In this document: positions 29,183-35,050 of the stretch, piece by piece
How positions within the stretch are numbered: the first letter of the stretch is position 1
Layout: every line of letters begins with the position of its first letter
Assembly: GCA_031292215.1 (NCBI GenBank)
Contig: JARLHO010000129.1
Span: forward strand, 1-52,066
Length of the DNA stretch: 52,066 nt
Source of the DNA: Syntrophobacteraceae bacterium
Lineage (GTDB): Bacteria > Desulfobacterota > Syntrophobacteria > Syntrophobacterales > Syntrophobacteraceae
Direction of reading: 5' to 3'
The notes under the pieces: model-generated
Seen by the model: only the letters and a program-made list of their open reading frames with translations
What the model was told of the DNA's origin: nothing
The model's database searches: none
Translations under genes and position numbers: made by a program

Positions 29183-30676
29183 ATGATCAGGTGGTTCAAG
29201 CGGAAGAAAGAAAAAGGGGCGCAAGGTTTAGATGACACTCCGGCCGGTAAGGCAGGTGAGGCGCAAGAGCCCGTGGAGCAGGAGACTTCGATAGCCCCCC
29301 CGGCCCCGCCGGTCGAAGAGATTTCCCCCGAAGAGGGAAAAAGCCCCGACGATTTGCCGCTGGACGAGCAGGAGGGGCTCGAAGAAAAGACAGCAGATGT
29401 AGTGGAAGAAGAAAACGAGGAGGAGCTGGAAGAAACCGCTCCCCGCAAAGGTTTTTTTAAGCGCTTTCGAAGCCGTCTAAAGGGGCAGGAAGAAGAAGAG
29501 AGCTCTTTTACCGAAGAACCGGACAAGGCCGAAGGGTCCCCGGAGCTAAAGACTTGGGCCGAAGCACCGCCCTCACCTGTCGAAGAGATTGCCCCGGAGG
29601 CCCAAACGGGACCGACGCCGGGCGCCGAAGAACTCGAGTCCCTGGTCCCCGGATATCACGAGCCCCCCGAGGAGTTGCCGCCGGGCGAACGGGAGGCGCC
29701 CGAAGAATATAGCCTGGAGCAGGAAGAGGAGGAAGATGGGGATCATCCGGGAGAAACCGTTCCCCGCAAGAGCTTTTTCAAACGTCTTCGCAGTCGTCTT
29801 AAAGGAACGCGGGAAAAATTTGCTCACCGCATAGACCGGCTGGTTCTTGGCCGGAAGGTAATAGACGACGACCTGCTCGATGAACTCGAAGAGATCCTTA
29901 TTACTTCCGATCTGGGAGTAAAAACAACCACGATGCTCCTGGGCAAGGTCGCCGACAAGGTGAAAAGAAAAGAGTTAAGCGACCCGGCAAGGCTAAGGGA
30001 ACAGATACGGGAGGAAATCCGGTCCACCCTGGCAATCGATGCCCCTCCCCTCGACTACCGCGCGCACAAGCCGCTGGTCATCCTGATCGTTGGAGTAAAC
30101 GGCACGGGAAAGACGACCACGACGGGAAAACTGGCCAGCCAGTTGAAAAAACAGGGGCTAAAACCGATGCTGGTTGCCTGCGACACATTTCGGGCCGCCG
30201 CGGTCGAACAGTTGTCGATATGGGGAGAGCGTACGGGAGTTCCGGTGGTAAAGCAAAAGAGCGGGTCGGACCCTTCGGCGGTCGCCTTCGATGCGCTCGA
30301 TGCCGCAGTTTCGCGCGACATAGACGTCGTACTGATGGACACCGCCGGCCGGATGCACACCAAGGTCAATCTGATGGAGGAACTAAAAAAAATCCACCGG
30401 GTTATCGACAAAAAAATGGCGGGCGCCCCTCACGAGATTTTTCTTGTCCTGGATGCCTCCACTGGCCAAAACGCCCTGTCGCAGGCAAAGCTTTTCAAGG
30501 AGGGCATAGGTCTTACGGGGCTCATTGTGACCAAGCTCGACGGTACGGCCAAGGGCGGAATTATCGCGGCCATCTGCGAGGAGCTCCAGGTGCCCGTCCG
30601 CTATATCGGGATCGGAGAAAGCATAGAGGATCTGCGAGCCTTCGACGCCGAGGAGTTTACGAATGCGTTGTTTTGA
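29183..30676 (+). CDS. ftsY: Signal recognition particle receptor FtsY with duplicated A-domain element
   Basis: FtsY receives SRP-ribosome complexes at the inner membrane and passes them to the translocon. Of 497 residues, the GTPase NG part fills about 209-497, with G1 [12 protein letters not shown] (304-315), [12 protein letters not shown] and DTAGR. The first 208 residues are the acidic A domain. Within it [18 protein letters not shown] (84-101) is repeated as [18 protein letters not shown] (191-208), 15 of 18 identical, each with a preceding PVEEI block (43-47, 132-136). The second copy is the normal membrane-targeting helix; the first is a duplicate. AAGGAGA precedes ATG 29183. Confidence 0.96.
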
Positions 30677-30807
30677 TACTCTGGATTAACCGGGAAATGA
30701 GCGACCGGGGCTGAATCGATCCCCCCGAATCCAGCGCCTGATTTCGTCGAAGCAAATGGTTTTTTAACCGCTCTCACGAATTGATTTTTTGGGAGGAATT
30801 CTTAGAG

Positions 30808-31026
30808 TATGTTTGTCATGTTTCCGATCGAATTCCCGCGCGGTCCCCGAAAGAGGGGAGTCCGTTTGTCGGGGAAAGCGCCGCGCACCTGAGTCAGGGT
30901 GTGGCGGCGAACATTTGGCGGGAGCGTGAGTTAGTGATAACTCTTATCAAGAGGTGAAGATTGGCGCCACCAAAGCCAGACCCCTCTGATGCGGTTACAA
31001 TGCGCATCAGAGGGGTTTTCCTTTTT
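30808..31026 (+). ncRNA. Candidate structured RNA or leader downstream of ftsY
   Basis: No standard gene fits this stretch, yet it folds well. GCGCGG (30838-30843) pairs with CCGCGC (30881-30886) with TCCCC/GGGGA inside it. GTGGCG (30901-30906) pairs with CGCCAC (30965-30970), enclosing GAGTTA-GTGA-TAACTC (30928-30943). A very strong terminator closes it at 30981-31026. A 27-codon ORF (MFVMFPIEFPRGPRKRG and on, ATG 30808 to TGA 30891, GGGAGG site 12 bases upstream) overlaps the first hairpin. It does not match 6S, tmRNA, RNase P or SRP RNA as I know them. It could be an sRNA, a small-ORF mRNA, or only the long 3' end of ftsY. Confidence 0.35.
30981..31026 (+). terminator. Strong Rho-independent terminator
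   Basis: CCCCTCTGATGCG (30981-30993) pairs perfectly with CGCATCAGAGGGG (31003-31015) around a 9-base loop, followed by TTTTCCTTTTT. It is the strongest terminator seen in the window and acts on plus-strand transcripts from ftsY or the region after it. Confidence 0.92.
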
Positions 31027-31052
31027 AAAAGGTCCCGGACGAGTCCGGAACC
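31023..31052 (-). terminator. Terminator of the zinc-ribbon gene
   Basis: On the minus strand, GGTTCCGGAC pairs with GTCCGGGACC (31052-31031, one G-T pair) around a two-base turn, so the tip must open by a pair or more. TTTTAAAAAGG follows. It lies 9 bases after the zinc-ribbon gene stop and faces the ftsY-side terminator, so the two transcripts end back to back. Confidence 0.75.
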
Positions 31053-31060
31053 CTTAAAAA

Positions 31061-31264
31061 TTAACGGGGAGCGGAGGCTGAGCCGGTCGCTTCCAGTTTG
31101 CATTTCGTAAAATCGATCTCTTTGCCGCATTTTCCGCAGACTTGCTTCTTGTTGAATTCGTCCGAGAAAATTTCTTTCTCCTGGCCACACTCCGGACAAA
31201 AACAGGAAAAGGACTGGAGGTTTTTCAGTTGCTCGAATCCCGGACAGTGTTGCGGTGTCGTCAT
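31061..31264 (-). CDS. Small zinc-ribbon protein, 67 aa
   Basis: ATG 31264 is selected because AGAGGAG precedes it by 7-9 bases; an upstream start would add an unlikely basic stretch. The product begins MTTPQHCPGFEQLKNLQSF, then has CFCPECGQE and VCGKCGKEIDFTKC, two paired-cysteine knuckles of a zinc ribbon. Similar short proteins occur in sulphate-reducing and syntrophic Desulfobacterota by my recollection; their role is unknown. The C-terminus (EATGSASAPR) is disordered. It forms a single-gene unit with its own terminator. Confidence 0.75.
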   Translation of the reverse strand: MTTPQHCPGFEQLKNLQSFSCFCPECGQEKEIFSDEFNKKQVCGKCGKEIDFTKCKLEATGSASAPR

Positions 31265-31394
31265 TTGTCGGCTCCTCTTTTGGGTGAGTGTTTTTTTCCA
31301 CAAGCGCGCAAGCAGCGCGCGATTAAAGACCGATAAGTCTTCACCCCCGTTCCGGGGTCCCTGGACCCTTTGCCGGAGTGTTCGAGTCGGCGCC

Positions 31395-34589: not shown

Positions 34590-35050
34590 TTGAAAGCCTA
34601 TGGGTGCCGGAGGATCAGCGGCAAAAGGCAGGTAGACGGTGACGGGCCGATCCGTCAGAAGCAGGCCATAAGTGATTATGCGGAAGCTCACGACATCGAG
34701 GTCGCAACGATCTTCCGCGAGGAAGGAGTTTCCGGAACGAAGGAAAACCGGGTTGCCCTGGCCGCGATGTTGTTATCCCTTGAGCAAATGGTCACGACGT
34801 CGACACGGTGATCATCGAAAAGCTTGATCGTCTGTCGCGGGCTCTGATGGTGCAGGAGAGCATCATCCGAGACTTTATGTCCCACGGTTTCAACCTTATC
34901 AGCGCCCTCGATGGTCCCGATCTTCTTTCCGGCGATCCCACCCGCAAGTTTATCCGCCACATGTTCGGCGCCATCGCCCATCCACTCTGCATGGCGCTCA
35001 ATTTCTTGAATAACGAGTCGGACGATTCCCGGATCGTAGCGCTTGAATGA
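34590..35050 (+). pseudogene. Broken serine recombinase (resolvase catalytic domain)
   Basis: The first frame (TTG 34590) reads MKAYGCRRISGKRQVDGDGP with the catalytic serine S10 in RISGK, then IFREEGVSGTKENR. A one-base loss near GAGCAAATGG (about 34780) moves the frame. The second frame reads DTVIIEKLDRLSRALMVQES, DGPDLLSGDPTRKFIRH and MFGAIA, as in recombinases. After MFGAIA the homology stops and the DNA-binding end is missing. It is non-functional. A matching C-terminal fragment occurs near 14.9 kb, possibly from another copy of the same family. Confidence 0.85.

Follow-up and report, generated by a model that had tools for sequence, protein, structure and literature searches.

The locus downstream of ftsY

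The window considered here, a stretch of 52,066 nucleotides from a Syntrophobacteraceae bacterium, contains the gene ftsY at positions 29183-30676, the product of which carries an SRP54-type GTPase domain, and, directly 3' of ftsY, the RNA region that is the subject of this analysis. Past this region, the minus strand harbors an 80-aa zinc-ribbon-like ORF at 31061-31303 (with a Pfam match below the cut-off), an 81-aa ORF, and uvrA. As judged by eye, the acidic N-terminal region of FtsY contains a duplicated basic motif, PRK(G/S)FFKR(F/L)RSRLKG (29440-29490 and 29760-29806, plus strand), possibly representing two membrane-binding segments. Farther downstream, between uvrA and an ORF that, by eye, we take to be pdxA-like, a resolvase N-terminal domain (PF00239) is split into two halves in different frames at 34590-35050 of the plus strand, the remnant of a serine recombinase.

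An initial annotation, made by inspection of the sequence, had described several stems and a perfect terminator behind ftsY, within 30677-31026. These are indeed present, and this entire region folds with a z-score of -3.78 relative to 100 shuffled sequences, none of which folds as well. The boundaries, in contrast, hold only in part: the unit lies inside them, whereas the first ~100 bases after ftsY (30677-30780) are not conserved, and the conserved RNA proper spans about 30814-31026. The folding signal is stronger for the presumed transcript (30812-31026; z = -5.84) and persists upon removal of the terminator (30812-30966; z = -4.49), with none of the 200 shuffled sequences folding as well in either case. 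In order, the unit comprises promoter-like elements, the helices P1, P2 and P3 forming a three-way junction, then a linker and finally an intrinsic terminator; the 5' end of the RNA, at ~30814, is placed by the promoter spacing and by the point where conservation begins. Specifically, the following features, all on the plus strand, can be delineated:

30781..30786, plus strand: putative -35 element TTGATT; all 10 members have an aligned TTGA
30803..30808, plus strand: putative -10 element TAGAGT, spacer of 16; pattern at an identical distance in 9 of 10 members
30814..31026, plus strand: predicted noncoding RNA of ~212 nt; covariance model match at 30814-30965 plus the terminator
30816..30833, plus strand: 5' strand of the closing helix P1; coordinates derived from the alignment
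30834..30874, plus strand: P2 arm, a bulged hairpin GCGGUCCCC N6 GGGG NN UCCG with the inner helix at 30839-30868; near-invariant
30879..30909, plus strand: P3 arm; from the alignment and consensus fold
30913..30929, plus strand: 3' strand of P1; from the alignment and consensus fold
30951..30964, plus strand: linker element GAGGTGAAGATTGG, resembling a Shine-Dalgarno site; AGGT unchanged in all 10 members
30980..31026, plus strand: intrinsic terminator, stem 30980-30993/31003-31016, with a T-rich tail; from the sequence and pair changes

Distribution of the RNA

A DNA search of 59 related genomes yielded seven matches at E<1e-10 (the genome of the window included), all within the genus. The matches in the six other genomes start at query position 104-154 and reach 339-350 (the one in G003 is partial, to 213), and hence the first ~100 bases after ftsY lie outside the RNA. 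The seven aligned members share the promoter-like pattern TTGA..(16-17)..TAnnnT, from which G005 departs at the last base, the RNA body, and the terminator. The covariance model R1, built from these seven sequences, covered the RNA body and contained neither the promoter nor the terminator. With this model, three further members of the genus were retrieved (G004, G006 and G008; E-values of 2.1e-7, 1.4e-6 and 1.1e-5), all three with promoter elements at the identical distance and with a terminator. Altogether, a covariance model of the orthologous regions, the check that had been proposed in the initial annotation, gives matches in 10 of the 11 genomes of the genus, one match each, and no match at E<=1 in 15 family genomes outside the genus. 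The sole genus genome without a detectable copy is G002, where ftsY is present, 1.6 kb from a contig end; loss of the RNA or an assembly gap may account for this.

A second model, R2, was built from all ten sequences and fits the ten members by construction. Among 40 relatives, it returned these members at E<=2.5e-22, again by construction, and, besides them, 22 weak matches with E-values of 0.08-4.2; in 395 genomes of the phylum, searched with stricter filters, it returned the copy in the window and two matches with E-values of 0.034 and 0.049. Of these 24 weak matches, 22 were inspected: the P2 core is missing from all of them, as is the promoter pattern, and open frames of 146 or more codons enclose 18 of the 22; the three members inspected as positive controls all show both the P2 core and the promoter pattern. 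A pattern search of genome contigs for P2 yielded 90 stretches, all of which were scored with R2. Eight of these are real (E<=1.1e-23) and add no independent evidence, their assemblies being those of eight genus genomes; the best of the remaining 82 scores 25.4 bits, over the pattern-selected P2 stretch alone. Members with a differing P2, for instance G005, are missed by this pattern. Thus far, the RNA has been found in one genus-level deltaproteobacterial group, and the wider searches returned no other convincing member.

Genomic neighborhood

Among the seven close members, each 3-kb locus contains the 81-aa ORF as well as the zinc-ribbon ORF, the latter always running convergently toward the RNA; six of these loci contain ftsY and five contain uvrA. 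In G003, ftsY is located on a different contig from the RNA. The 3-kb loci of the three divergent members (G004, G006 and G008) contain no ftsY, zinc-ribbon ORF or uvrA. The copy in G004 adjoins a convergent gene for a TPP enzyme, and the copy in G006 is located between an unnamed ORF and a same-strand Lon-like gene that starts ~430 bases past the terminator. Since the promoter, the body and the terminator are kept together at unrelated loci, the unit is most simply viewed as a gene, and with three divergent copies at other loci, the RNA does not appear to be merely the 3' end of ftsY. The initial annotation had staked its case on conservation and on a transcript distinct from the ftsY 3' end; conservation was found and, as far as the sequence tells, the unit stands apart from ftsY.

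Promoter, terminator, and the 27-aa ORF

In 9 of the 10 members, the pattern TTGA.. N15-18 TAnnnT occurs with an exactly constant distance between its -10 element and the RNA, compared to a rate of 1.6-5.8% per upstream sequence upon shuffling; the exception is G005, with TACTTA at the -10 position. Wherever the -10 element fits, the spacer between the two elements is 16 or 17 bases. The fit to the sigma70 consensus in the window is moderate (8 of 12 positions), and this promoter is absent from the list produced by a stricter sigma70 scan. Judging from the -35 and -10 positions, transcription would start at about 30814. By sequence, then, the RNA carries promoter-like elements of its own.

At its other end, the RNA has its own intrinsic terminator, a perfect stem of 30980-30993 with 31003-31016 that is followed by TTTCCTTTTT. 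An automated terminator scan reported no sites because its loop limit is 8, compared to the loop of 9 bases here. Across the ten members, the 12-pair terminator helix is formed in 92.5% of the cells, and 5 of the 12 counted pairs are changed on both sides; in G007, G010 and G009, one arm of the terminator has turned into CCCCCC, and this change is compensated inside the terminator. An antiterminator pairing of GAGG in the linker with CCUC in the terminator was considered and rejected, the pairing not being kept as judged by eye in the ten-member alignment. On the minus strand, at 31052-31027, a second terminator-like hairpin with a T run can be seen by eye, belonging to the zinc-ribbon ORF, so that the RNA and the zinc-ribbon ORF seem to be two convergent units with separate terminators.

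The initial annotation had also pointed to a possible small-protein gene, a 27-aa ORF at 30809-30892 with a GGGAGG site at 30791. Both exist as strings. However, we reject this ORF as a gene: its ATG at 30809 is located directly behind the -10 element, that is, before the inferred transcription start, in promoter DNA; GGGAGG sits in the spacer between the -35 and -10 elements; and the codon aligned with this ATG is AAA, ATT, ATA or TTA in the nine relatives and ATG in none. An inner ATG (codon 4, at 30818), ~4 bases into the inferred transcript, is found in 5 of the 10 members, with products of 24, 67, 44, 2 and 63 residues (the window, G007, G001, G009 and G003, respectively) in frames that disagree, which likewise counts against this ORF.

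Secondary structure and covariation

Folding of the seven aligned sequences with RNAalifold gave the closing helix P1, the arms P2 and P3, and the terminator. For the ten-member covariation analysis, a plain MAFFT alignment was combined with the P1-P3 structure of the seven-sequence set and with terminator pairs from a fold of all ten. Pairing is formed in 86.0% of the cells, compared to 82.1% for shuffled alignments and 39-57% for slid controls. Changes on both sides are seen in 17 of the 51 pairs (10.5 in the shuffles, sd 2.2; 5-11 in the slid controls), nine of these pairs belonging to P1 and five to the terminator, and in 27 cells (14.4 in the shuffles, sd 3.1; 6-13 in the slid controls); the covariation score is 0.246 as compared to 0.180 for the shuffles, a control that ignores relatedness, in a sample of few (ten), related sequences. 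Further pair types are no more numerous than in the shuffles, 148 of 500 of which reach as high a count. Compensatory changes in the stems, which the initial annotation had named as support for an RNA, are thus present in a conserved structure.

The individual parts of this structure differ in firmness. The pairs of P1 are formed in only 75.6% of the cells, and P3 has a small inner helix that is weak. When G004, G006 and G008 are folded singly over P1-P3, the same junction results, with z-scores of -1.57, -1.46 and -1.10; among the six members folded in this way, these three values and that of G005 (-0.55) are weak, and the other two are -2.56 and -3.04. When the members are folded at full length, a form other than the consensus P2 hairpin has the lowest energy in the window, G009 and G005, and the folds of G008 and G010 differ from the consensus in parts other than P2. 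The lowest-energy form in the window and G009, and, as a variant, in G005, is an alternative P2 pairing, UCCCCGA/UCGGGGA; by eye, G010 breaks this alternative and G004 lacks it, and it was rejected.

Covariation gives no test of P2, which hardly varies: within its inner helix, 7 of the 10 pairs are invariant across the 10 members, while the mean column identity is 68%. The hexanucleotide loop is variable and the stem GCGGUCCC/GGG-NN-UCCG is constant. Since the sequence of the bulged stem is conserved beyond what pairing demands, this pattern suggests that the stem itself is recognized.

The linker element

Between P1 and the terminator, the tetranucleotide AGGU is invariant in all ten members; in the window it is part of GAGGUGAAGAUUGG (30951-30964). 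Behind AGG, at a distance of 6-10 bases, TTG or ATG is found in all ten members (the spacings in G009 and G004 were read from the alignment). The form of the linker in the G010 RNA, the 14-mer GAGGTGAAGTTTGG, is one change away from the linker in the window. In five genomes of the genus, this 14-mer also forms the rpsC start region, with a TTG start, so that there the element takes the form of a genuine start site. Specifically, the rpsC genes of L180, L181, L182, L193 and L200 have a TTG start behind GGAGGTGAAG, 14 bases in common with the G010 linker; their identity as S3 genes is confirmed by Pfam for L181 and follows from equal flanking sequence for the other four.

The reading frame behind the linker TTG is not maintained: single-base indels located just behind it shift the frame among close members, the ORF has no stop before the end of the RNA in two of the ten (the window and, for the TTG frame as read by eye, G009), and the other eight encode differing peptides of 5-12 residues. 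The linker fits the anti-Shine-Dalgarno sequence no better than shuffles do (fraction 0.105-0.74); as for accessibility, five of the ten members have this site largely paired and two have it open.

In 11 genomes searched for stretches complementary to the linker 14-mer, allowing one mismatch, there were 23 matches and no recurrent target. Six of the 23 are the RNA itself, five are the rpsC start, which is on the same strand as the linker and therefore is a look-alike, not a complement, and 12 are others, compared to 8 for a reversed control pattern; two of the 12 resemble, by eye, one coding stretch of the enoyl-CoA-hydratase type. Of all 23, 14 were read in their context, including all of the 12 others except L183, L192 and L199.

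Known RNA families and partner proteins

At gathering scores, a scan of the whole window with Rfam finds only a tRNA at 453-525, so that this check, too, which the initial annotation had called for, assigns the RNA to no family. With permissive settings, the stretch 30640-31100 gave six matches below threshold that look like chance, none of them credible, the best being a microRNA model on the terminator hairpin (24.8 bits, with a cut-off of 75). In permissive Rfam 15 scans of the other nine copies with their flanks, nothing was found on the RNA, and two weak matches fell outside it. The impression that the RNA is unlike the common housekeeping RNAs is borne out, as 6S RNA, SRP RNA and tmRNA are located elsewhere in the genome: the SRP RNA model (RF00169) and the tmRNA model (RF00023) have no match at the RNA, the real ones being on contigs C29 and C51, respectively; the 6S model (RF00013) has no match there at E<=5, the real 6S RNA of this genome being on contig C61; and the RNase P models have no match there in the permissive scan. 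Among the literature matches listed, there is nothing on this RNA.

Hfq is the usual partner of small RNAs in E. coli. A search with the Hfq model (PF17209), which detects the protein in 5 of 14 controls and would miss a very divergent Hfq, found it in none of the 11 genus genomes, so that a host with Hfq, as expected for an Hfq-dependent small RNA, was not seen. CsrA, in contrast, is found in 10 of these 11 genomes (not in G005). The motif GGA occurs 3-7 times per member, compared to shuffle means of 5.2-6.7, and ANGGA 0-2 times.

A probable stand-alone gene for a structured RNA

Taken together, the promoter-like elements, the compensatory changes, the terminator, the matches at unrelated loci and the lack of an Rfam match favor the new small RNA that the initial annotation had offered as one of its two readings. 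We consider it very probable that ~30814-31026 is a stand-alone gene for a structured, trans-acting noncoding RNA of ~212 nt. RNA polymerase would start at ~30814 and stop at the terminator, and the transcript would fold and work as RNA, not as a message. Given that Hfq is undetected in the genomes of the genus, the RNA would act without it, and is probably Hfq-independent, with the near-invariant bulged hairpin P2 as the candidate docking site. That P2 docks a protein is a tentative proposal, possible although short of probable; a pairing of the conserved linker with a target RNA or with the 30S subunit can be envisaged with slightly less confidence still.

The linker invites a different reading, namely, that the RNA is a short mRNA, with a tiny ORF (TTG at 30961; ATG in distant members) translated from the Shine-Dalgarno-like GAGGUG. 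The invariance of AGGU, the TTG or ATG 6-10 bases behind AGG in every member, and the identity of the G010 form of the linker to the rpsC start region would all fit such a message. Against it stand the indels that alter the frame between close relatives, the missing stop in two members and the disparate short peptides of the other eight, along with an anti-Shine-Dalgarno fit that is no better than in shuffles and a site that is largely paired in half of the members, and we regard it as improbable. The same features could be accommodated by a new class of ribosome-directed RNA, in which the linker would mimic a translation start and P2 would bind a ribosomal or other protein, titrating the 30S subunit or a translational regulator; this is a long shot and, if true, such an RNA would act in a lineage without detected Hfq. 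With no conserved peptide, a Shine-Dalgarno fit at the level of shuffles and a site largely paired in half of the members, both the short mRNA and the ribosome-directed RNA are kept as minor readings.

The association with ftsY raises the possibility of a cis-acting element, which would either serve ftsY as its 3' UTR or terminator structure or act on a downstream gene as a riboswitch or attenuator. The RNA follows ftsY in six of the seven close members, no ftsY terminator can be seen by eye ahead of it, and transcription of ftsY may enter it. However, the RNA has promoter-like elements of its own, three members reside at other loci, and ftsY of G003 is on another contig. A downstream target fares no better, since the next gene is convergent in all seven close loci and in that of G004; in the G006 locus, a same-strand gene begins ~430 bases past the terminator. 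A cis-acting role accordingly appears quite unlikely. The presence of CsrA in nearly all genomes of a genus with no detected Hfq could point to an RNA of the CsrB/RsmZ type that titrates CsrA, but a CsrA sponge was rejected as GGA is enriched in none of the 10 members and ANGGA is scarce, which leaves this option with a negligible probability.

The stand-alone RNA gene, if correctly identified, adds a structured RNA family without an Rfam 15 match, with boundaries, promoter elements and a consensus fold that are defined and make the family directly testable. Its host group, with CsrA in 10 of 11 genomes and Hfq detected in none, raises the question of how small RNAs work there. The case also illustrates that a signal of structure plus terminator, seen by eye, can mark what is very likely a real gene, while the apparent small ORF in the same place starts in promoter DNA.

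Comparison with known systems

With 6S RNA (RF00013), the RNA described here shares a similar length, a single copy per genome, and a structured, stand-alone character; it differs in being a three-way junction, and a separate 6S RNA scoring above the cut-off is present in all 11 genus genomes. The RNAs of the CsrB/RsmZ type are similar in that they, too, are stand-alone structured RNAs, a likeness that extends to the CsrA-bearing genus without detected Hfq, but their enrichment in GGA is missing here. The general trans-acting small RNAs of bacteria differ in having simple hairpins, as compared to the large three-way junction and the undetected Hfq in the present case. Nevertheless, it is the intergenic trans-acting small RNAs that the RNA resembles in its promoter-like elements, compact fold, intrinsic terminator, intergenic site and narrow range, so that, strong as an RNA gene and with a candidate function only, it would represent a new family of a familiar kind.
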